Source: Burkholderia sp. 9120
Lineage (GTDB): Bacteria > Pseudomonadota > Gammaproteobacteria > Burkholderiales > Burkholderiaceae
Assembly (NCBI RefSeq): GCF_000745015.1
Contig: NZ_JQNA01000001.1
Location: 1 to 64,000 of the forward strand
Direction: 5' to 3'
Length of the DNA stretch: 64,000 bases
The notes beneath the pieces were generated by a model. The model saw only the letters and a program-made list of their open reading frames with translations. It was not told the origin of the DNA and searched no databases. This document shows positions 50,355 through 60,448 of the stretch, piece after piece (positions within the stretch are counted from its first letter, which is position 1; the number at the start of each line of letters is the position of its first letter). Made by a program: the position numbers and the translations under genes.

Positions 50355-50374
50355 GCGGGGTGGCGTGGTTTTTT
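50344..50374 (+). terminator. Terminator overlapping the TAXI-gene stop codon
   Basis: Perfect 8-bp stem GCCACCCC (50344-50351) / GGGGTGGC (50357-50364) with a TAGGC loop, followed by GTGG and six T. The TAG stop lies in the loop. The convergent ProQ-domain gene ends at 50373 inside the T-run. Confidence 0.8.
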
Positions 50375-51236
50375 ATGCTGCTGGCGTAGCCGGCGGGGTG
50401 CCGGCTGGGGTTGCAGCTTCAGGTGTCGGCTCGGCTGCCGTTTCGGCAGCCGCTTCGTGACTGACCGCTGCGTCGGCCGCGTCGGCTGGCGGCGTGCTGT
50501 CGGCGCCGGCTTCGGTCAAAGCCGGAGCCTCAGCCGTCGCTTCAGCCGAAGCCTCAGCCGTCACCGCCGCGTTAGCTTCGGTCGAAGCGCCCGCCGCTGC
50601 TGCCGCGGTTGCATCAGCCGCACCCGCAGCCGCGGCCGCGGCCTTCTGCGCCCCACGACCCGCGCGATGCGCTTGCAGACGCTGCGCGCCGGCCGCTTCC
50701 TGCGCGCTCACCGTGCCCGATTCACCGCCGGTCAGATCCACCCGTGCCGCGCCTTCGACGAGGCACTTCCAGTAGCGGCTGCCACGACACCAGGTCTTGA
50801 TCGCGTCGCGCAGTTCGGCTTCGCTCAGCGACAGCTCCTTCGCGTGGACCACGAGGTCTTCGAAAATGCCGACCTTCAGCGGCAGCTTCGGCGCCGGGTT
50901 CTTCGGGAACGCATTCGGAAAACGCTTCTGCAGTCGGCCGATCGATTTCACCACCGGGTCCACCGGCTTCGCATCCGCCGCCGGCCTGGCGTGCGCGGAC
51001 GGCCGCGCGCGCGCGGGCGCCTGGGCGTTCGCGTCCGCATTGGCGGTCGGCTTTGCATCGGGCGCGTGACGGCGCGGCGGCTGCGCAGGCTTCGCGCGAT
51101 GCCGTTCGCCAGCCTGGGCAGCGGGCTTCGCGCCAGGCTTGGAACCACGCTTTGCATCCGGCTTGGCGGCAGGCGCCGCTTCGGCTCGCGCCGCGGCCAG
51201 TTGCTTCTTCAGTTCGGCAAGTTGTTCGAAACCCAT
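50373..51236 (-). CDS. ProQ/FinO-domain RNA chaperone with low-complexity tails
   Basis: A 287-aa protein. The start at 51236 gives MGFEQLAELKKQLA; the longer frame is non-coding. The N-terminal 80 or so residues are Lys/Ala/Pro-rich and basic. The ProQ/FinO domain follows (about 90-170; RLQKRFPNAFPKNPAPKLPLKVGI and WCRGSRYWKCLVEGAARVDL). The C-terminal about 110 residues are Ala/Glu/Thr repeats. It should bind structured small RNAs; flanking low-complexity regions are common in beta-proteobacterial members and may aid RNA binding. Confidence 0.9.
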   Translation of the reverse strand: MGFEQLAELKKQLAAARAEAAPAAKPDAKRGSKPGAKPAAQAGERHRAKPAQPPRRHAPDAKPTANADANAQAPARARPSAHARPAADAKPVDPVVKSIGRLQKRFPNAFPKNPAPKLPLKVGIFEDLVVHAKELSLSEAELRDAIKTWCRGSRYWKCLVEGAARVDLTGGESGTVSAQEAAGAQRLQAHRAGRGAQKAAAAAAGAADATAAAAAGASTEANAAVTAEASAEATAEAPALTEAGADSTPPADAADAAVSHEAAAETAAEPTPEAATPAGTPPATPAA

Positions 51237-51346
51237 AGCGCACAATCGATCGAGAAAGACGAGATTGTAGCAGCGTGTGGAAACCCGCTCGTGACAACGC
51301 TCAGCGGCGGGTCCACACGGCCTGCGGACCGGTGAATCCGGCGCCG

Positions 51347-51511
51347 TCAACGACGCGCCGATGTGGCGATTTCGCCCTCGTGCGCAGGCAGTCCGGACAC
51401 CGCCACGCACAGCCCCGCGCGGCCCGGATTATTGCGCAACGACAGCGCGAGCTGGTGCCGCCCGGCGATGCGCGACACGATCGCGAGCCCCAGCCCGCTC
51501 CGGCGCGAAGG
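51347..51511 (-). pseudogene. 3' remnant of a histidine kinase gene
   Basis: Immediately after the hpnK stop (51512-51514) and in the same frame, 54 codons read SGLGLAIVSRIAGRHQ, the G2 box of a histidine-kinase ATPase, then LALSLRNNPGRAGLCVAVSGLP and a stop at 51347-51349. Everything upstream (H-box, N and G1 boxes, start) is missing. It looks like the tail of a deleted kinase gene. It resembles the intact kinase at 55102-56502 (SGLGLSIVARIAEH) only in the motif, so a recent copy is unlikely. The rest of 51237-51511 has no gene. Confidence 0.7.
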
Positions 51512-52339
51512 CTACCTCGGCAACACATCCGCAAAGCCGCCCAGCCTCGCGCCCGTCGCGCGAATTGCCGCCGCGACTCGTGGCGACAACAGCGCCTGCA
51601 GTTCGTCGGCGTGCCGGTAGCCCCGCATGCCGTGACTCAACGCACGGTCGCCGGCCATGGCGGGATGGCAGTAAATCTCGCTCACGCCATCCGGCAAATC
51701 GGCGAGCGCCTGGAGCCACACCGCTTCACCCATCCGGCCGCTATCCGCGATTCCCACCACGTAATCGTTGTGCGCAATCCCCGCTCGATCCAGCCGTGCC
51801 CGCACCGTTGCGATCCACGGCCTCAGCCAGAGCGGCGCACCCACCTCGAACGGCAGACGCACCGCCCGCATGCCGTACTCGCGGCCAATCTGCAGGATCA
51901 AGCCCAGCACCGTGGGATGCAAATGGAAATGCTTGTGCGTGTTGACGTGGTCGAGCGGCAGACCGGTGTTCGCGAACGCGTCGAATTGCGCGCGAATCTC
52001 TCGCGCAAGTTGTCGGCGCACATGCGGTAAGAAGAAAAACCGCACGCCGTCCCACGCCATGTTGTCGCCGAAACGGCCGTGCTCGTCGAGCAATGCGGCA
52101 ATCTCCGCGCGCGGCATGAGCGCGTCGCCATCGGCCAGCACCAGATGCAGGCCGACGCGCAATTGCGGCAACGTCCGCGCGCGCGCCACCGCATCGGCGG
52201 CGGCCGGCGCGCCGATCATCAGACTCGCGGCGCTCAGCACGCCATCGCGATGCGCGCGCTCGACCGCCAGATTCACGCGCGGGTGCAAACCGAAGTCGTC
52301 GGCGGTCACGATCAGCGCGCGCGGCCGGCTAGCCACCAT
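51512..52339 (-). CDS. hpnK: Hopanoid deacetylase HpnK (YdjC/CDA-like)
   Basis: A 275-aa YdjC-superfamily metal-dependent deacetylase with TADDFG near residue 12, RVGLHLVLADG and NTHKHFHLHP metal-binding histidines. In the known route HpnK removes the acetyl group of N-acetylglucosaminyl-bacteriohopanetetrol to give BHT-glucosamine. It overlaps the upstream hpnI-type gene by 11 nt. A kinase-gene remnant follows in the same frame. Confidence 0.9.
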   Translation of the reverse strand: MVASRPRALIVTADDFGLHPRVNLAVERAHRDGVLSAASLMIGAPAAADAVARARTLPQLRVGLHLVLADGDALMPRAEIAALLDEHGRFGDNMAWDGVRFFFLPHVRRQLAREIRAQFDAFANTGLPLDHVNTHKHFHLHPTVLGLILQIGREYGMRAVRLPFEVGAPLWLRPWIATVRARLDRAGIAHNDYVVGIADSGRMGEAVWLQALADLPDGVSEIYCHPAMAGDRALSHGMRGYRHADELQALLSPRVAAAIRATGARLGGFADVLPR

Positions 52340-53705
52340 CGGAAGTCTCCATCACGTCCATCATGCTGAGCGCCGCGTTACGCGCCGTCGACGCGTCGAG
52401 CGGCACGCGCGCGCCACGCCACGTGACATGCGAGCCGAACGCGGCCGCGGCCCATTGCAGCGTCAGCAACGTATCGCGCAACGGCACGAGCGGCAGATCG
52501 CGCCAGAAGGTCCGCTCATGACGCGCGGCGCGTCCATGCAATAACAAGCGCGCTGCCGCGCCCGCGAGCGTGCCGGCCGCGCAGGCGAACGCCGCCGTGA
52601 GGTGCAGGTCGTCCACTGGACCGGTCGCCAGATTAGCCGTGAGCCACACGCCGGCCAGCAACCAGGGCGACGTGAACGTGATAGGCAGCGCGGCAAAGCC
52701 CAACAGATTCACCGAGCGGATGGTGCGCAGCCAGCGCGTCTCACGTTGCCACAACGCGGCGAAGATCGGCTCGATCACGTCCGTGGCCACCATCACGCGC
52801 GAGAGCACCGTGGGCAGTCCCAGTGCGCGGACGTGTTCGGCCAGCCAGTAATCGTCGGCGAGGCAGTTTTTCAGCGCGGCGAAACCGCCGATGCGGTCGA
52901 GCGTCGCGCGCCGCAATGCGAGTGTTGCACCGAAACCGAAGCGGCGCGATCCGGCCGCGTGCGCGACGCGCACCGACGGCGCGAACCACTCGTTGATGAA
53001 GAGCGCGCCCAGCCGCGGCCAGAATCCGCCGACGCCCTGCGCGACATAGAGACAGGTGACCACACCGACCCGCGGATCCGCCAGCGGCGCGGCGACGGTG
53101 TCGAGATAATCGGCTTCGACGGCGATGTCGCTGTCGGCGATCACGATCACCTCGTGACGCGCGTGCCCCGCCATATTGATCAGGTTGCTGACCTTGAGAT
53201 TGGTGCCGTGTACGCGCGTGTCGATTGCGAGTTCGATGTCGTGCTGCGGATACGCCGCTTGCAGACGGCGCACCACGGCGATCGCGGGATCGTCCGGCGA
53301 CGATACGCCGAGCACCAGCTGAAAATGTCCGTGGCGTTGATCGCAGAACGTGCGCAGGTTTTCGTAGAGACGCGGTTCGGCGCCGCACAGCGGCTTGAGC
53401 ACGCTGACGCCGACGTTGGCGAAGGAATAGCAAGCGGGTGTCGCGTTAGTCGCTGCACTAACGGCTGTATTAGCCGTTGTATTAGCCGTTGTATTAGCCG
53501 TTGTATTAGCCGTTGTATTAGCCGTTGTATTAGCCGTTGTTTTAACCGTTGTTTTAACCACCGCATTAACCGCCGAAGCGGATGCCGCACGGCGGCGTCC
53601 ACCGAAAAACGGCATCGCCACCGCCGCGACCATTGCATACAGCGATGCGCCGGCGCACGCGGCCAACAGAAGCCATTGCCATACCGTCAACGCGTGCGCG
53701 GCCAC
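52329..53705 (-). CDS. hpnI: HpnI-type hopanoid glycosyltransferase with repeat insert
   Basis: A 458-aa GT21 (ceramide-glucosyltransferase-like) membrane enzyme. Marks are the N-terminal helix, LKPLCGAEPRLYENL, DSDIAVEADYL, and QRETRWLRT (QxxRW type), with further helices at the C-terminus. HpnI adds N-acetylglucosamine to bacteriohopanetetrol. Between the first helix and the catalytic domain (about residues 49-80) is a Thr/Ala/Asn repeat insert from a 12-bp array. Coupled to hpnK. A second hpnI-type gene is at 57744-58904, so which one does the BHT step is uncertain. Confidence 0.85.
   Translation of the reverse strand: MAAHALTVWQWLLLAACAGASLYAMVAAVAMPFFGGRRRAASASAVNAVVKTTVKTTANTTANTTANTTANTTANTTANTAVSAATNATPACYSFANVGVSVLKPLCGAEPRLYENLRTFCDQRHGHFQLVLGVSSPDDPAIAVVRRLQAAYPQHDIELAIDTRVHGTNLKVSNLINMAGHARHEVIVIADSDIAVEADYLDTVAAPLADPRVGVVTCLYVAQGVGGFWPRLGALFINEWFAPSVRVAHAAGSRRFGFGATLALRRATLDRIGGFAALKNCLADDYWLAEHVRALGLPTVLSRVMVATDVIEPIFAALWQRETRWLRTIRSVNLLGFAALPITFTSPWLLAGVWLTANLATGPVDDLHLTAAFACAAGTLAGAAARLLLHGRAARHERTFWRDLPLVPLRDTLLTLQWAAAAFGSHVTWRGARVPLDASTARNAALSMMDVMETSDGG
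53461..53568. repeat. Nine 12-bp tandem repeats inside the hpnI-type gene
   Basis: Unit gccgttgtatta occurs five times exactly (53473-53532), flanked by degenerate copies on both sides (acggctgtatta, gccgttgtttta, accgttgtttta, accaccgcatta). All are in frame and encode Asn-Thr-Thr-Ala-type repeats in the linker after the first membrane helix. Exact copies next to decayed ones suggest recent slippage at the core. Confidence 0.9.
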
Positions 53706-53717
53706 GATGCGGCGCCA

Positions 53718-54086
53718 TCAATGCGCGGCGAGCACGAACGGCCTGCCCGTCAGGCGCAAATGGAGAACGACGAGCCAGCACTGCGGACAGTCGGCGGCGA
53801 TGGCGACACAGCGCGCGTGGGCGTGAGCGTGAGCGTGAGCCTCGTGCGAGGTGACATGACGGCTTTGCAGCGCGGAGTCGAAGGCGGCCTGCGCGAATTC
53901 GCGCGTCACGATCACGCCGCTGACGATCGCGGCAACCGCCAGCAAGCGGAACGGCGTGGAACTGAATAGCTGCTGCGAGACCGGCAACAACAGCAACGCG
54001 ACGCACGCGAGCAATTGCGCGCACAGGGCCGTGAACGAGGCCACGATCAGATGGGCGCGCAGCATGTCGACGGTAAGTGGCTTCAT
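53718..54086 (-). CDS. Small membrane protein upstream of hpnI-hpnK
   Basis: A 122-aa protein with two hydrophobic segments (about residues 13-36 and 47-62), then an (Ala-His)n run (SHEAHAHAHAHARC) and a CPQC pair near the C-terminus, enough for metal binding. I do not recognise the family. It starts the unit that continues with hpnI (12-bp gap) and hpnK, and lies 222 bp from a PmrA-type box. Confidence 0.7.
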   Translation of the reverse strand: MKPLTVDMLRAHLIVASFTALCAQLLACVALLLLPVSQQLFSSTPFRLLAVAAIVSGVIVTREFAQAAFDSALQSRHVTSHEAHAHAHAHARCVAIAADCPQCWLVVLHLRLTGRPFVLAAH

Positions 54087-54307
54087 GGCGTGGTCTCGTG
54101 ACCTGGCTTCTGGCTAACCTGGTGAAACACACAGCGCCCCCGGCATCGGTGCGCGTTGTCGGCATTAAAACCGACCATGCGTTTCATCGATATGCTTACG
54201 ATCAAATTGCGACGACGTGGCGGGACAGCGACGACACAGCATGGTGCCGTGCGTTCATGACGGCCACACGACAGTCACCTGTCGAACGGCGATGGTATCG
54301 ATCCAAG

Positions 54308-54324
54308 CTGAAGGAAACCTTAAG
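54308..54324. promoter_or_regulatory. PmrA/QseB-type box, copy 1
   Basis: CTGAAG-GAAAC-CTTAAG, two 6-mers 11 bp apart, fits the (C/T)TTAAG-N5-(C/T)TTAAG site of PmrA/QseB-type regulators with one mismatch. It lies 119 bp upstream of the response-regulator ATG and 222 bp upstream of the minus-strand membrane protein/hpnI/hpnK unit. More CTTAAG-like hexamers occur at 54367-54372 and 54392-54397. The same spacer and flank recur at 60432. The rest of 54087-54442 holds no gene. Confidence 0.65.
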
Positions 54325-54442
54325 AAAAAAAACGCCATGAAACACGGTGCAAACGAGCTGGTTACACTTAAGATAAGCGGCTCGTCGGACGCTTAAAAAG
54401 CCACGACGTCATGCGGTCCACGTCGAACGGAATCACACCATC

Positions 54443-55102
54443 ATGCGCATCCTTCTCGTAGAAGACGACGATCTGATCGGCTGCGGAATCGAGGCCGGTT
54501 TGCGGCAGGCCGGCTTCACCGTCGACTGGGCGCGCGACGGCCACAAAGCCGGTCTCGCGCTCGACACCACCGCGTATGCACTGCTGATACTCGACCTCGG
54601 TTTGCCGCGCGTTTCCGGTATGGAATTACTGAAGCGTTTGCGCGGCGCGGGCAAAGACGTGCCGGTGCTGGTGCTGACCGCGAAGGGTACGGTCGTGGAC
54701 CGCGTGAGCGGTCTCGAAGCCGGCGCCGACGACTACCTCGGCAAGCCCTTCGATCTGACCGAACTGATCGCCCGTTGCCGGGCTTTGCTGCGGCGAGCAC
54801 AGGGCCGCAGCGTCGAGCTGATCCGTTATCGGGATCTGACCGTCAATCCGAGCGCGCAAACCGTGGAGGTGGGCGCGACGCGCGTGCCGCTCACGTCGCG
54901 CGAATGGGCGATCCTGATGCAGTTGCTGACGCACCAGGGCATTCCGCAATCGCGCTCGCGGCTCGAAGAAAGCCTGTACGGCTGGCAGGAGGAAATCGAG
55001 AGCAACGCGATCGAAGTTCACGTGTCGAACCTGCGTAAAAAACTGGGCGCCAAGCTGATCCGCACCGTGCGCAATATCGGCTACGTCGTGGAGAAAACGT
55101 AA
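54443..55102 (+). CDS. OmpR-family response regulator, PmrA/QseB-like
   Basis: A 219-aa protein: receiver domain with acidic pocket VEDDD and phosphoacceptor Asp51 (LLILDLGLP), switch Thr in LTAKG and Lys in LGKPF, then a winged-helix DNA-binding domain (TSREWAILMQLL, SNAIEVHVSNLRKKLG, IRTVRNIGYVV). Sequence style is closest to QseB/PmrA. It overlaps the kinase start by one base. A PmrA-type box upstream suggests autoregulation, and the same box upstream of hpnJ suggests control of hopanoid modification. Confidence 0.93.
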   Translation: MRILLVEDDDLIGCGIEAGLRQAGFTVDWARDGHKAGLALDTTAYALLILDLGLPRVSGMELLKRLRGAGKDVPVLVLTAKGTVVDRVSGLEAGADDYLGKPFDLTELIARCRALLRRAQGRSVELIRYRDLTVNPSAQTVEVGATRVPLTSREWAILMQLLTHQGIPQSRSRLEESLYGWQEEIESNAIEVHVSNLRKKLGAKLIRTVRNIGYVVEKT

Positions 55103-56502
55103 TGTCGCCGTCTATCCGCCGGCGCCTCGTTCTGCTGGTGCTCGCCAGCATCGTGCTGGTGTGGGGTGTCGCGCTGATCACCAGTTACGGCCAGGCCAAG
55201 CGTGAAGTCAGCGAGTGGGAAGAAGCGCGCCTCGCGGAACTCGCGCAGATTCTCGCGCTGCTCGATCAACGCAATCTGACCACGCTTGCGAATGCGCGCA
55301 TTGACGTGCGCGAAGAAGAGAAAGGCGGCGAGCCCGGTGCGAACGACGCCGATGACGACGACGCCTTGCCGCGCGACGCCCTCTTCCAGGTACGCAAGGC
55401 AAACGGCGACATGCTGGCGGGCAGCCCGCAATTGCATGCGCTCAACGCGTGGGATCTGCCGGTGCCGCCCGCGAGCGGCGCCCAGGACGTCACGCTCGGC
55501 GGCCAGCGGTACCACTCGTTCACGTTGCGCGACACCACCCTCGGCCATATCGTGCGCGTGTTCGAACCGGCCAATACGCGCAGCGATCTGGTGAGCGGCG
55601 TGGCGAGCCGGATTGCGCGGCCTACGCTGATCGCGCTGCCGGTGCTCGCGCTGCTGGTGTGGTTCAGTATCGGTTTGAGTCTGGCGCCGCTCAAGGTGCT
55701 GTCGGGCGCGATCCGTTCGCGCGACGTCAACCGCCTCGAACCGGTCGACATTGGCCGCGCGCCGACCGAGGTGCGCCCGCTCGTCGACGCGATCAATCTG
55801 CTGCTGTCGCGCTTGTTGCATTCGCTGGAGCGCGAACGCGCGTTTACCGCCGACGCCGCCCATGAACTGAAAACGCCGCTCGCCGCGATCAAGGTGCAGG
55901 CGCAAGTCGCGCTCGCCGAACCGGATACGGCATTGCAGCGGCTCGCGATGGAACGCGTGGTGCAAGGCGTGGACCGCAGCGCGCGGCTCGCGGAGCAACT
56001 GTTGCTGCTGGCGCGACTCGACGTGCACGAGAAACTGTCCACGGTGCCGCTCAAGCCCGCTGCGGTCGCGAAAGACGCGCTGCTCGCCAACGAACGCAAT
56101 GCGCAGCAGAAACATATCCGCGTGACGCTCACCGGCGATCTGCGCGCCGAGATCCATGCGGAGCCGGTGCTGATCGGGATTCTGCTCGACAACCTGCTCG
56201 ATAACGCGATCAAGTACGGGCAGACCGGCGGCAGCATCGAGGTCGCGGTGGAACACGCGGTCGACCGGGTGCAGTTGACGGTGCGCGACGACGGCCCGGG
56301 CGTCGCGCCTGGCGATCTCGACCGTCTGACGAATCGCTTCTTTCGCGCGACCGGCAATCAGGCGACGGGGAGCGGGCTGGGTTTGTCGATCGTCGCGCGG
56401 ATCGCGGAACATTTCGGCGCGGATTTGCGGCTCGGCCGGGGGATTGGCGAGCGTGGTTTGTCGGTGGAGGTGTCGTTTCCGGCATACGCGGCGGTGCGGT
56501 GA
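55102..56502 (+). CDS. Sensor histidine kinase, PmrB/QseC-like
   Basis: A 466-aa inner-membrane kinase: helix 1 (about residues 9-28), periplasmic part (about 30-172), helix 2 (about 173-195), HAMP-type linker, H-box HELKTPL with His254, N-box NLLDNAIKYG, G1 DDGPGV and G2 GSGLGLSIV. The periplasmic part has a dense acidic loop (about residues 71-88, EEE and DADDDD), suited to metal or cationic peptide sensing. It partners with the response regulator at 54443. Confidence 0.93.
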   Translation: MSPSIRRRLVLLVLASIVLVWGVALITSYGQAKREVSEWEEARLAELAQILALLDQRNLTTLANARIDVREEEKGGEPGANDADDDDALPRDALFQVRKANGDMLAGSPQLHALNAWDLPVPPASGAQDVTLGGQRYHSFTLRDTTLGHIVRVFEPANTRSDLVSGVASRIARPTLIALPVLALLVWFSIGLSLAPLKVLSGAIRSRDVNRLEPVDIGRAPTEVRPLVDAINLLLSRLLHSLERERAFTADAAHELKTPLAAIKVQAQVALAEPDTALQRLAMERVVQGVDRSARLAEQLLLLARLDVHEKLSTVPLKPAAVAKDALLANERNAQQKHIRVTLTGDLRAEIHAEPVLIGILLDNLLDNAIKYGQTGGSIEVAVEHAVDRVQLTVRDDGPGVAPGDLDRLTNRFFRATGNQATGSGLGLSIVARIAEHFGADLRLGRGIGERGLSVEVSFPAYAAVR

Positions 56503-56550
56503 AGCGATGTGATGCGGTGCGGTGCGGTGTGATGAAGCAGCAGCCGCGCC

Positions 56551-57615
56551 CTAACGCTGGCTCGCTTCGCCCGCCACTTGCCGATCGGCGAGCGGGACAG
56601 ACGGTACAGTCGGCACAAGCCCCATCTGTTCCGAAGCCCCCTCAGGCGCACGCTTAGACGACTCCGCGAACTGCCACGCAATCAGCCCCGGCACGAACAT
56701 CAACAGATCGCGAATCCGCCGCGCGCCGGCCAGCGCAAGACACAGCGAAGGCTCGAGCCCCAGCGCACCGCCGATCAGAATAAACCCGCCCTCCTGCACT
56801 CCCAAACCGCCCGGCACGAAGAACGCCGCGCTGCTGATTGCCTGGATCAGCGACTCGATCACCACCGCCTCGACCAGCGTGATACGCACACCAAGAAAAA
56901 CCAGCGCGATCCAGATTTCCAGCGACGTCAGCAGACATTGCAGCGGCTGCCAGAAGAACAGATAGCGCAGCACCACGCCGCGCCGCCGCCAGATCAGTTT
57001 GATGGTCTGATCGATCCGCGCCGATTGACCGACCAGCGCCGCGAGCTTGCCGCTCGTCATCCGGTCGAGCACGCGGCTCATCCGTTCGAACGGACTCGCA
57101 TGCTGCACAAGCGCGAACAGCACGAATAGCGGCGTCAGCACCACCACGCCCCACGCGAGTTGAGAGGCCAGCCGCAACGTATCCGAATGCGCATGCGCGA
57201 ACAGAAAGCCGATGCCCACCATCGTGAACATCAGCTGGCTGATCACCGTGAGTTGCATGTCGACGATGATGCTGCCCACCGCCATCGACGGTCGCACACC
57301 CCAGCGCCTGAGCATGCGGAACGACACGACTTCGCCGCCGATCCGCGCGACCGGCAGCATGCAGTTGACCGATTCGCGTACCCACACGAGATGCAGCATC
57401 CGGCCGAGGCTCGGCCGGTTCGCGCCGCGAATCAGCGAACGCCAGTCGCAGGCGTTGGCGATCATCGGCAGTATGTGCGCGAGCGCCGCCAGCACCAGAC
57501 CCGCGCCGGCCGCCCGCAACGCGCCGAGTACGGCGCCGGGATTCTCCCGCCAGACGAGCCACAGCGACACCAGCAAGCCGGCGAGCGCGGCCGCGCGACC
57601 GAGGTGCTTGATCAC
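56551..57615 (-). CDS. hpnL: Hopanoid-associated membrane protein HpnL
   Basis: A 354-aa protein with about eight hydrophobic segments and the motifs of the LPG-synthase-membrane-domain/UPF0104 family (PVARIGGEVVSFRMLRR, FFVPGGLGVQEGGF). The GTG at 57615 has a strong ribosome site (GAGGTGG); the longer frame is non-coding upstream. HpnL proteins are found with hopanoid genes and may move hopanoids or lipids; the precise role is unproven. It is 128 bp after the hpnI-type gene on the same strand. Confidence 0.85.
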   Translation of the reverse strand: MIKHLGRAAALAGLLVSLWLVWRENPGAVLGALRAAGAGLVLAALAHILPMIANACDWRSLIRGANRPSLGRMLHLVWVRESVNCMLPVARIGGEVVSFRMLRRWGVRPSMAVGSIIVDMQLTVISQLMFTMVGIGFLFAHAHSDTLRLASQLAWGVVVLTPLFVLFALVQHASPFERMSRVLDRMTSGKLAALVGQSARIDQTIKLIWRRRGVVLRYLFFWQPLQCLLTSLEIWIALVFLGVRITLVEAVVIESLIQAISSAAFFVPGGLGVQEGGFILIGGALGLEPSLCLALAGARRIRDLLMFVPGLIAWQFAESSKRAPEGASEQMGLVPTVPSVPLADRQVAGEASQR

Positions 57616-57743
57616 GGCGCCACCTCGCGCGCGCGATTCGGATTCGCCGCGCCGAGCGCGGCATGACGTAGAGGTTCGGGAAAGCCGCGTTTCATGGCCG
57701 ATCCGGACTGCCGTTGATCCGTCATTCGTGGATGATTCGTTCG

Positions 57744-58904
57744 TCATTCGTCCGGCTGCGCCGACAACAGGCCGTCGCCGTCCACCTTGAAACTGAAGCC
57801 GCGCCAGATCACGCGCGACGACCAGAAACTCGCGACGAAAATCGCAAATGACACGATATCCCATAACGGCAACAACCACAGATCGCGACGCGCTTGCCGC
57901 AGCGCACGATCGGACAGCAGCTTCAGCGCAAGCCTTGCGCTCATCGCCAGCAACGCGAGTGCCCACGCCCACGGCGCACCGCCGGAAAACATCACGGTCA
58001 GCAACGCGAACGCGAGCGGATGGATCAACGCGGAGCCGAGATGCCCGAGCGGATCGACGCTGCGAATCGTGCGGCTCCAGCGCAGTTCGTGCGCGATCAG
58101 TTGCATCGCGCTCGTTTCGACGCACGCGTGCGAAATCGTGAACGGCGGAATCACCACCTTCTCGCCGATCATGCGCACCGCTTCGCCGATTGCGTGATCT
58201 TCGGCGAGGTGCCGCACGAACGGCGTGAAGCCGCCGATTTTTTCGAGGGTATCGCGCCGCATCGCGATCGTCTGACCAAAGCACGGACGCGCGAGGCCGA
58301 GCGCAAGACCGGTCACGACGCCGGGCAGGAACTGATAATTGGTCGCCTTCGCCGACAGCCTCGGCCAGAAACCCGGATCGGGCGCGCCGCGATACGCGCA
58401 GGTCACAAGCCCGACGCCCGGCTTCTGCAATTCGCCGATCACGTTGCGCAGATAATCCGGGCCGACGCTGACGTCGCTATCGGCGAACACCAGCACGTCG
58501 TGCCGCGCTTGCGGCAGCATATTGAGGATGTTGCTGATCTTGCGGTTCGGGCCGTAGAGGCGCGTGTCGGCCACCACGGTGATATCCGCGCCGGGATGCA
58601 GGCGCCGCAGGTCGTCGACGGTGTGCAGCGCGGGGTCGGCGCAATCGTGCACGCCGAACAGGAATTGCACCGGACCCGGATAGTTCTGCTGGCAAAAGCT
58701 CGACAGATTGGCGAGCAACGCCCATTCGTTGCCGTGCAGCGGCTTGACGATCGTGACCGGCGGAAAGCTGCTCGGCTCGGACACCGCTCGCGCGAAGAAG
58801 CGCCCGATCAGCGCGCCGGCCAGCACCGTATAGGCGACGCCGAACGCCGCCCCCGCCGCGCACGCACAGGCCAGCGCGGCGGCGACCAGATGCAAGGCGC
58901 TCAC
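57744..58904 (-). CDS. Second HpnI-type glycosyltransferase
   Basis: A 386-aa GT21-type membrane glycosyltransferase with an N-terminal helix, VTIVKPLHGNEW, FADSDVSVGPDYL, ELRWSRT (RW motif) and several C-terminal helices. It overlaps hpnJ by 4 nt. In known clusters HpnI is next to hpnJ/hpnK, so this could equally be the true HpnI. It lacks the repeat insert of the other copy and is well diverged from it. Confidence 0.87.
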   Translation of the reverse strand: MSALHLVAAALACACAAGAAFGVAYTVLAGALIGRFFARAVSEPSSFPPVTIVKPLHGNEWALLANLSSFCQQNYPGPVQFLFGVHDCADPALHTVDDLRRLHPGADITVVADTRLYGPNRKISNILNMLPQARHDVLVFADSDVSVGPDYLRNVIGELQKPGVGLVTCAYRGAPDPGFWPRLSAKATNYQFLPGVVTGLALGLARPCFGQTIAMRRDTLEKIGGFTPFVRHLAEDHAIGEAVRMIGEKVVIPPFTISHACVETSAMQLIAHELRWSRTIRSVDPLGHLGSALIHPLAFALLTVMFSGGAPWAWALALLAMSARLALKLLSDRALRQARRDLWLLPLWDIVSFAIFVASFWSSRVIWRGFSFKVDGDGLLSAQPDE

Positions 58905-60322
58905 GCCTCGTGAGCGCGCAGGAAGCGGAAGAATTCGACGCCTTCACGCAGGCGTCGTTTCATCATGTCCCAACTGGTCAGCATCTCGCGCAGGATTTCC
59001 CAGATCTTCGAGGGTCGGAAATAGAAGCGCTTGTAGAAGTTCTCGAGCTGATGGAAGATCTCGTCGCGCGACAGATGCGGATAGCCGATCGCCGCCAGCT
59101 GCACGCCCGATTTGCTGACGAGGTTGATCACCTTGTTCTCTTCGAGCCAGCCGTTTTCTACCGCCTGGTTGTACAGCGTCGTGCCCGGATACGGCGCTGC
59201 AAGCGAGACCTGGATGGTATGAGGATTGATCTCTTTGGCGTACTCGATCGTCTTCTGGATCGTGTCCTGCGTCTCGCCGGGCAGGCCGAGAATGAAGGTG
59301 CCGTGAATCTTGATGCCGAGCTTGCGGCAATCGTCGCTGAAACGACGCGCGATATCGGTACGCAAGCCCTTCTTGATGTTCAGCAGAATCTGGTCGTCGC
59401 CCGATTCGTAGCCGACCAGCAGCAGGCGCAGGCCGTTTTCCTTCATGATTTTCAGCGTCGCGTAGGGCACGTTCGCCTTCGCGTTGCAGGACCACGTCAC
59501 GCCGAGTTTGCCCAGACCGCGCGCGATTTCCTCGACGCGCGGCTTGAAGTCGGTGAAGGTGTCGTCGTCGAACATGATCTCTTTCACTTCAGGCATGTTG
59601 TCGCGAATCCACTTCACTTCTTCCAGCACGTTCTCCGTGGAGCGCGTGCGGTAGCGATGCCCGCCCACCGTTTGCGGCCATAGGCAGAACGTGCATTTCG
59701 AGCGGCAGCCGCGGCCCGTGTAGATCGACACGTACGGATGCTTCAGATAGCCGATGAAATAATTGTCGATCTTCAGATCGCGCTGGTAGATCGGCGCGAC
59801 GAACGGCAGTTCGTCCATGTTCTCGAGGATCGGACGGGCTTCGTTGTGTTCGATCGAACCGTCGGGCGCGCGGTAGCTCAGCCCCTTGATCTGCGCGAAC
59901 GGTTTGCCTTCGGCGACTTCCTGGCAGGTGAAATCGAATTCTTCGCGGCAGACGAAATCGATCGCATCACTCGCGATCAGCGAGTTGTGCGGATCGACCG
60001 CGACCTTCGCGCCGACCATGCCGATCAGCATCGCGGGCCTGCGCTTTTTCAGGTCTTCGGCGAATAAAGCGTCGGTGGGGAAAGACGGCGTGCTGGTGTG
60101 GATCACCACCAGATCGTATTGCTGGGCGATGTCGAGCGTGGCGTCGACGGACAGGCCGTCGGCGGGCGCGTCGAGCACGCGGCTGTCGGGCACCAGCGCG
60201 GCGGGCTGGGCGAGCCACGTCGGATACCAGAATGAACGGACTTCACGCTTGGCCTGATAGCGCGAACCCGCGCCACCGTCGAAGCCGTCATACGACGGCG
60301 CCTGCAAAAACAGGGTTTTCAT
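58901..60322 (-). CDS. hpnJ: Hopanoid radical SAM enzyme HpnJ
   Basis: A 473-aa radical SAM protein with an N-terminal B12-binding-like domain (about residues 1-150), the cluster motif GRGCRSKCTFC (Cys206, Cys210, Cys213), and a C-terminal extension. In the known pathway HpnJ contracts the glucosamine ring of BHT-glucosamine to give the cyclitol ether head group. First gene of the unit hpnJ-hpnI-type-hpnL. A PmrA-type box is 110 bp upstream of its start. Confidence 0.92.
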   Translation of the reverse strand: MKTLFLQAPSYDGFDGGAGSRYQAKREVRSFWYPTWLAQPAALVPDSRVLDAPADGLSVDATLDIAQQYDLVVIHTSTPSFPTDALFAEDLKKRRPAMLIGMVGAKVAVDPHNSLIASDAIDFVCREEFDFTCQEVAEGKPFAQIKGLSYRAPDGSIEHNEARPILENMDELPFVAPIYQRDLKIDNYFIGYLKHPYVSIYTGRGCRSKCTFCLWPQTVGGHRYRTRSTENVLEEVKWIRDNMPEVKEIMFDDDTFTDFKPRVEEIARGLGKLGVTWSCNAKANVPYATLKIMKENGLRLLLVGYESGDDQILLNIKKGLRTDIARRFSDDCRKLGIKIHGTFILGLPGETQDTIQKTIEYAKEINPHTIQVSLAAPYPGTTLYNQAVENGWLEENKVINLVSKSGVQLAAIGYPHLSRDEIFHQLENFYKRFYFRPSKIWEILREMLTSWDMMKRRLREGVEFFRFLRAHEA

Positions 60323-60431
60323 TGACGCTCCGGCAAGCCTGGATGGGTGCTTTCAGTTTTCTGTCGGAAAACTATCGGCACACTTACCCGCGGGGAAACG
60401 GGTGAATCGCGCTAAATACTACGGAGCGAAG

Positions 60432-60448
60432 CTGAAGGAAACCTGAAG
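60432..60448. promoter_or_regulatory. PmrA/QseB-type box, copy 2, upstream of hpnJ
   Basis: CTGAAG-GAAAC-CTGAAG, with the same 5-base spacer and the same flank (AAG before, AAAAA after) as the box at 54308-54324. It lies 110 bp upstream of the hpnJ start, in reverse orientation relative to that gene. The rest of 60323-60650 holds no gene. Confidence 0.6.

Follow-up and report, generated by a model that had tools for sequence, protein, structure and literature searches.

A QseBC/PmrAB-type two-component system with matching boxes before two hopanoid side-chain operons of Burkholderia sp. 9120 as a putative dedicated control of hopanoid head groups

Gene Organization of the Locus

The DNA analysed here, called the window throughout, is the initial 64 kb (64,000 nucleotides) of contig 1 of Burkholderia sp. 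9120, the genome of which consists of two contigs with 8.46 Mb. It contains a response regulator and sensor kinase pair on the plus strand (54443–56502), flanked on both sides by minus-strand operons of hopanoid side-chain genes, one with a small membrane protein gene, hpnI, and hpnK (51512–54086), and the other with hpnJ, a second hpnI-family gene, and hpnL (56551–60322). Each operon is preceded by a 17-nt box, and we present evidence from comparative analysis that the pair may be a dedicated system acting on both operons through these boxes. Hopanoids are sterol-like bacterial lipids that contribute to polymyxin tolerance in Burkholderia, and their heads matter for envelope strength and serve as sediment biomarkers. 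HpnI, HpnJ, and HpnK are hopanoid side-chain enzymes, the polar heads being glucosamine or a cyclitol ether on bacteriohopanetetrol. To our knowledge, how bacteria choose the polar head is largely unknown. The features of the locus are as follows:

51512..52339, minus strand: hpnK, YdjC-type deacetylase (TIGR03473, 404.8 bits, cut-off 232.6; PF04794)
52329..53705, minus strand: hpnI, first copy, glycosyltransferase (TIGR03472, 440 bits, cut-off 310)
53718..54086, minus strand: small membrane protein, 122 aa, opening the box 1 operon ("membrane" from its hydrophobic helices)
54292..54297, minus strand: -10-like TACCAT, exactly 10 nt past box 1, without a -35 element
54308..54324, minus strand: box 1, CTTAAG-GTTTC-CTTCAG, ~220 nt before the small membrane protein gene
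54443..55102, plus strand: response regulator of OmpR/PhoB class, PmrA/QseB-like, 660 bp (PF00072 and PF00486 above cut-offs)
55102..56502, plus strand: QseC-like sensor histidine kinase, whose presumed periplasmic domain contains an acidic DDDD stretch
56551..57615, minus strand: hpnL, membrane protein (TIGR03476, 334 bits, cut-off 195.65)
57744..58904, minus strand: hpnI-family glycosyltransferase, second copy (TIGR03472, 504 bits, cut-off 310)
58901..60322, minus strand: hpnJ, radical SAM protein (TIGR03471, 842.1 bits, cut-off 577.6)
60416..60421, minus strand: -10-like TAGTAT, exactly 10 nt past box 2, without a -35 element
60432..60448, minus strand: box 2, CTTCAG-GTTTC-CTTCAG, ~110 nt before hpnJ

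The hpn assignments made in a preliminary description of this DNA were borne out, as HpnK, both HpnI proteins, HpnL, and HpnJ all exceed their NCBIfam cut-offs. A search with HpnJ found only one hpnJ copy in this genome, and the core cyclase, squalene-hopene cyclase, is encoded on the other contig without such a box.

Two Boxes with a Common Spacer and a Fixed Promoter Geometry

The two sites of PmrA/QseB layout with a common spacer that had been described at 54308 and 60432 were confirmed, reading CTGAAGGAAACCTTAAG and CTGAAGGAAACCTGAAG, respectively, on the plus strand. At up to three mismatches, these were the only two matches in the window, shuffled versions of which gave a mean of 0.02 matches and never reached two. 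Across the genome, the shared 17-mer matched 22 sites at the same threshold (two perfect, none with a single mismatch, one with 2, and 19 with 3), the lone 2-mismatch site sitting in GGAGGAAACATGAAG, which resembles a ribosome-binding site plus start codon. Since the reversed pattern gave 13 matches over the whole genome at up to three mismatches, the 3-mismatch matches are background, and the two perfect sites are not. The loose layout CTKAAG-N5-CTKAAG is not rare by itself (8 strand-matches genome-wide versus 4 in the control), so it is the common spacer that distinguishes the pair of boxes. A chance origin was ruled out by the window shuffles, the genome scan, and the genus scan with controls described below, and no third or further near-perfect box was found within 1 mismatch over the 8.46 Mb.

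Both boxes share the minus-strand form CTTMAG-GTTTC-CTTCAG, followed by 10 nt and then by TANNAT; a -35 element was sought in both promoters, with a best match of just 2/6. From the orientation of box and -10, both promoters point at the hpn operons and not at the regulator gene. Neither this direction nor the -10-like hexamers were part of the preliminary description, which had located the boxes. For boxes at ≤1 mismatch in loci fetched from relatives, TANNNT was found at +10 in 31 of 32 sites before hpnJ (one of the 32, in locus L166, fronts merely a 56-residue hpnJ remnant before hpnI), in 38 of 40 sites before the membrane protein gene, with one further at +11, in the single site before hpnI (1/1), and in 12/22 sites without a downstream hpn gene, counts in which the boxes were pre-selected by their mismatches and the -10 itself was unselected. 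Once near-identical contexts had been removed, spacer and hexamer held 1.1–1.5 bits per base, versus 0.2–0.4 for the flanks.

A strict 10-nt distance from box to -10 is known from PhoB-type activators. With the box in the -35 position and 10 nt from the -10, the regulator would most likely recruit RNA polymerase. The opposite effect was also considered, namely that the same regulator represses both operons from the same boxes and that the signal relieves this repression, given that a box in this place is compatible with both blocking and recruiting polymerase; however, the missing -35 element and the strict, PhoB-like gap to the -10 speak against it, and we regard repression as unlikely. PmrA and Salmonella PreA are also described as activators (PMC3973317, PMC2653508).

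Co-Inheritance of Boxes, Kinase, and Hopanoid Genes

In the genus scan (144 genomes), the box was found at ≤1 mismatch in 94 genomes, the reversed pattern yielding 2 matches overall, while kinase relatives were detected in 102 (E 1e-60) and HpnJ in 135 (E 1e-100); the closest named matches of the kinase are from Paraburkholderia. Every genome with a kinase of at least 72% identity has the box at ≤1 mismatch (74/74), as have both genomes with a kinase at 61–63% (2/2). When only HpnJ-positive genomes were compared, the box was present in 74/74 with the two closest kinase classes versus 8/39 without them, a comparison that leaves out 22 HpnJ-positive genomes of the distant kinase class. Fisher's p of 1e-20 for box versus kinase class overstates the association and is a guide only, as the genomes are kin.

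Class A clusters were fetched by the position of the kinase, 20 in all. A box at ≤1 mismatch precedes hpnJ in 19/19 of those with this gene, and in the remaining one (L198), hpnI is preceded by a 2-mismatch box. The membrane protein gene is preceded by a box at ≤1 mismatch in 18/20 and by a 3-mismatch site in L186 and L202. In two loci (L203 and L204, genomes G129 and G130), the kinase gene has internal stops, yet both boxes are still perfect. Moreover, genome G049 has a second hopanoid cluster (L304, C20) that is apparently a decaying duplicate: its membrane protein gene is boxed, its regulator match looks intact, and its kinase was found in pieces only.

Hopanoid genes located away from the pair were also found behind boxes. 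In genome G033, the pair lies on contig 2 with a 1-mismatch box before an hpnJ remnant and hpnI, and contig 1 holds both a boxed hpnJ (0 mismatches) and a boxed membrane protein–hpnI unit (2 mismatches). Genomes G039 and G081 have a boxed hpnI–hpnK unit (1 mismatch each) on a different contig from the pair, and G066 has a five-gene hopanoid operon with a 1-mismatch box 1.3 Mb from it. These displaced genes bear on the idea that box 1, which is ~120 nt upstream of the regulator gene, would only autoregulate that gene, with box 2 as a decayed copy lacking any hopanoid role. A weak 3-mismatch site is indeed kept near the regulator in G033, where the operon is elsewhere, but the -10 points away from the regulator, box 2 is kept at ≤1 mismatch in all 19 fetched class A loci with hpnJ, and the displaced hpn genes carry boxes of their own, making such a scenario extremely improbable. 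That the boxes serve the regulator gene alone was ruled out by their orientation and by the boxes at displaced genes.

Twenty hpnJ regions not adjoining the pair (12–13 kb each) were fetched as controls, 11 of which come from 9 pair-bearing genomes. None has a box at ≤2 mismatches, and one (L242) has a site at 3; these boxless regions ruled out the box as a constant part of every hpnJ promoter. Their typical content (L226–L245) is a boxless canonical cluster of hpnI-hpnJ-hpnK-hpnL' type, common in the genus and present also as a second cluster, which encodes the same enzymes but has neither an adjoining kinase pair nor a box, and which co-occurs in 8/9 of the pair-bearing control genomes. The L242 operon (membrane protein-hpnJ-hpnI-hpnL, genome G097) lies in a genome without a listed kinase relative and is possibly an orphan in decay. 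Over the genomes compared, these results showed that boxes, pair, and hopanoid genes tend to be inherited together.

Class and Specificity of the Regulator and Sensor

The regulator has both the receiver and the winged-helix output domains of the OmpR/PhoB class, and its best-scoring solved structures are those of BasR/PmrA (8jo2, 4s04). It scores 226.8 bits against the PmrA profile NF007928 and 216.8 bits against the QseB profile NF007663, below the respective cut-offs of 330 and 345, and the kinase reaches 259.2 bits against the QseC profile, below the cut-off of 475, QseC still being its nearest family. The recognition helix of the regulator, ESNAIEVHVSNLRKKLG, is near-identical in aligned orthologues down to ~63% overall identity, and altered in three orthologues at 61–62% (L261–L263) and in the 9 closest paralogues of its own genome. 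In a docking model of PmrA, two histidines of EVHIH are proposed to set base specificity (PMC3973317).

The genome holds 31 regulator matches including the query, that is, 30 others, one of them a 53% paralogue at C1:1606012. The boxes could thus belong to another OmpR-class regulator, with the neighbouring pair a mere bystander, and the similarity of PmrA/QseB-type half-sites and the cross-regulation within the class would allow for it. Nevertheless, box and kinase are co-inherited in 74/74 genomes, the 20 hpnJ regions apart from the pair have no box at ≤2 mismatches, and the recognition helix is conserved in orthologues and different in the 9 aligned paralogues, so that we hold this to be very unlikely.

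In the sensor, the presumed periplasmic part is as conserved as the kinase part (80.3 versus 79.9% identity over 24 class A rows), and DDDD is kept in all 24 rows, the row of a broken gene (L007) having DDD. For a QseC relative in Haemophilus, a response to ferrous iron and zinc has been reported (PMC12737762), and PreB is described as having a putative DxxE iron site (PMC2653508). From the conserved acidic stretch and these reports on QseC/PreB relatives, a cation or cationic peptide is a fair guess for the signal.

Boxes Beyond the Genus and Before Other Genes

A family scan covered 398 genomes and 25 genera, with 60 genomes belonging to the same genus. At E 1e-100, a kinase relative was detected in 74 genomes, which represent 8 genera. 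The exact box gave 52 matches in 30/398 genomes, and the reversed control none. Compared by eye with the kinase positions, 51/52 of these are no more than 8 kb away from the kinase, including one that faces a 92-aa gene (G135); the remaining one precedes the unlinked hpnJ of G033. Outside the genus, the exact box occurs in 4/338 genomes, and the four loci, all of them fetched (L246, L247, L248, L265), contain both the pair and hopanoid genes. In genome G447 of genus g12, with a regulator 66% identical, the exact box and a TAGCAT at +10 precede a membrane protein-hpnJ-hpnI-hpnL operon.

Similar boxes were found before other targets. Six other g12 loci fetched have a 2-mismatch box immediately beyond the kinase gene, followed at +10 by TAGAAT or TAAAAT; in both loci checked (L252, L255), this box precedes a cytochrome b561 gene. 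In a distant Paraburkholderia class, CTTAAT-N5-CTTCAG lies upstream of membrane protein-hpnI-hpnJ-hpnK in 14/14 fetched loci with hopanoid genes; in most cases, the -10-like hexamer is at +11. These loci have a further box next to the regulator, and the gene behind this further box encodes cytochrome b561 in L206 (PF01292) and L210 (by sequence). Loci L172 and L221, and L225 at 2 mismatches, have the box before cytochrome b561 and no hopanoid gene within the fetched stretch. Altogether, cytochrome b561 genes under the same or a similar box near relatives of the kinase pair were seen in L206–L219, L172, L221, L225, and L252, and confirmed by Pfam in five loci; no cytochrome b561 is found among the proteins of the cluster in the window. 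We infer that this regulator family had cytochrome b561 among its old targets, the hopanoid genes being a newer one. A kinase tree of 44 rows contains one fully supported all-hopanoid clade of 26 rows, and the hopanoid label needs 5 changes overall; the tree would neither prove nor exclude a cytochrome-first order, being compatible with both recruitment and loss.

In addition, 11 class A genomes have a box at ≤1 mismatch before a gene for a conserved protein of ~92 aa. This gene is in most cases distant from the kinase pair and was found at the following loci:

L175, L179, L184, L287–L291, L295, L296, and L301: 92-aa protein family

This family was discovered via the box, so only its recurrence counts as evidence. 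It has no convincing Pfam match, and a search run without a positive control found no match in the genome of the window. The other genes found behind boxes in relatives show no evident connection. In genome G052 (L169, C12), where no hpnJ was found, a promoter near-identical to the boxed hpnJ promoter precedes a 5'-nucleotidase gene.

Other Features of the Locus

No Pfam family matched the small membrane protein above the cut-off, and the predicted model of the protein, consisting of two long helices and a short C-terminal part (mean pLDDT 77.6), has no match in the PDB at E ≤0.001. For hpnL, the GTG at 57615 is a likelier start than that of a longer ORF beginning within hpnI, judging from the match range. 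The first hpnI contains an in-frame tandem repeat of 12 bp (window 53440–53570), which gives the glycosyltransferase a stretch rich in Thr and Asn, TTANTTANT..., close to its N-terminus. Directly downstream of hpnK (50373–51410), there is a gene for a ProQ/FinO-domain protein with long Ala-rich stretches.

Discussion

The QseBC/PmrAB-type pair of the window is, with a probability that we put at roughly 0.8, a dedicated system that directly controls, and most likely activates, hopanoid head-group tailoring. Kinase (55102–56502) and regulator (54443–55102) would form the two-component system, and the phosphorylated regulator would bind CTTMAG-N5-CTTCAG head to tail. As the box takes the place of the -35, 10 nt before the -10, binding would most likely bring in RNA polymerase, and the membrane protein-hpnI-hpnK and hpnJ-hpnI-hpnL operons would be turned on together. 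The switch would change which polar head, glucosamine or cyclitol ether, joins bacteriohopanetetrol. Of the earlier proposal that the system switches head-group synthesis on, the boxes stood as real, conserved in many relatives, tied to the regulator, and placed before both operons, and the activation itself is a probable reading of their geometry.

Several observations weigh against this interpretation, besides the pre-selection of boxes in the -10 counts and the capacity of a box over the -35 to block polymerase. In the genus, the box is present in 10/23 genomes of the distant kinase class (49–56% identity), and also at ≤1 mismatch in 8/45 genomes without any kinase relative of at least 47%. 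There are kinase relatives with neither box nor nearby hopanoid genes, such as those of L250, L260, L263, and L264, and a second pair of this sort in genome G041 (L177). Boxes also precede non-hopanoid genes in relatives, at least three of them exact among the matches listed (L169, L171, L174). Finally, the absence of the boxes from relatives, named in the preliminary description as a refuting outcome, was not what the comparison showed, except at the six g12 loci mentioned above, which have regulator, hpnI, and hpnL and lack the canonical box before the operon; the five of them whose intergenic stretch was examined share CTGAAG-N4-CTTAAG instead.

PmrAB is known for the modification of envelope lipids, and PmrA recognizes a pair of hexamers with a 5-nt spacer. 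The same head-to-tail layout is seen here, with the half-site CTTMAG. Likeness to PmrAB (BasRS) extends to the regulator class and to the two hexamers arranged head to tail, but the half-sites reported for PmrA are CTTAAT/CCTAAG (PMC3973317), the recognition helix here has EVHVS instead of EVHIH, the regulator falls under the PmrA cut-off, and the predicted targets are hopanoid genes. With QseBC/PreAB the pair shares a kinase nearest to QseC and, in its relatives, a box before cytochrome b561, a cytochrome b561 gene being activated 30-fold by Salmonella PreAB, the QseBC orthologue, in one array (PMC2653508); however, both proteins fall under the Qse cut-offs and the cluster is devoid of cytochrome b561. 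No hopanoid targets of QseB were found in the literature searched.

The statement that no such link had been described needs correcting, since in B. thailandensis exposure to polymyxin B is reported to induce a hopanoid operon via the two-component system BesRS, in a study whose authors add that the box of the hopanoid operon still requires verification (PMC9426598). The general link between polymyxin, a two-component system, and hopanoids is therefore already published and not new. From its description there, and not by direct alignment, BesRS differs in having an RstA-like regulator of 711 bp, a box based on TGCG, and a broad regulon (PMC9426598), versus a PmrA/QseB-like regulator of 660 bp and a CTTMAG box here. 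The dedicated system described here was not found in the literature searched, in which coverage of subscription journals is thin, and we only infer polymyxin as a signal for it.

A broader proposal is more tentative: a QseBC-like system with an older b561 target may have been re-targeted to hopanoid heads, yielding an inducible, cation-sensing switch of surface charge, the hopanoid counterpart of PmrAB, with the small membrane protein, and the 92-aa protein in some species, as unrecognised helpers.

In conclusion, judged by its sequence, the locus looks like a dedicated switch for hopanoid surface chemistry, and its targets appear to have been re-wired among relatives, in which similar boxes lie before cytochrome b561. 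With such a regulator and no more than two near-perfect boxes in the genome, the question of head choice becomes directly testable, and, as the box accompanies the target genes even far from the regulator, the family offers a clean case for the gain and loss of targets by two-component systems.

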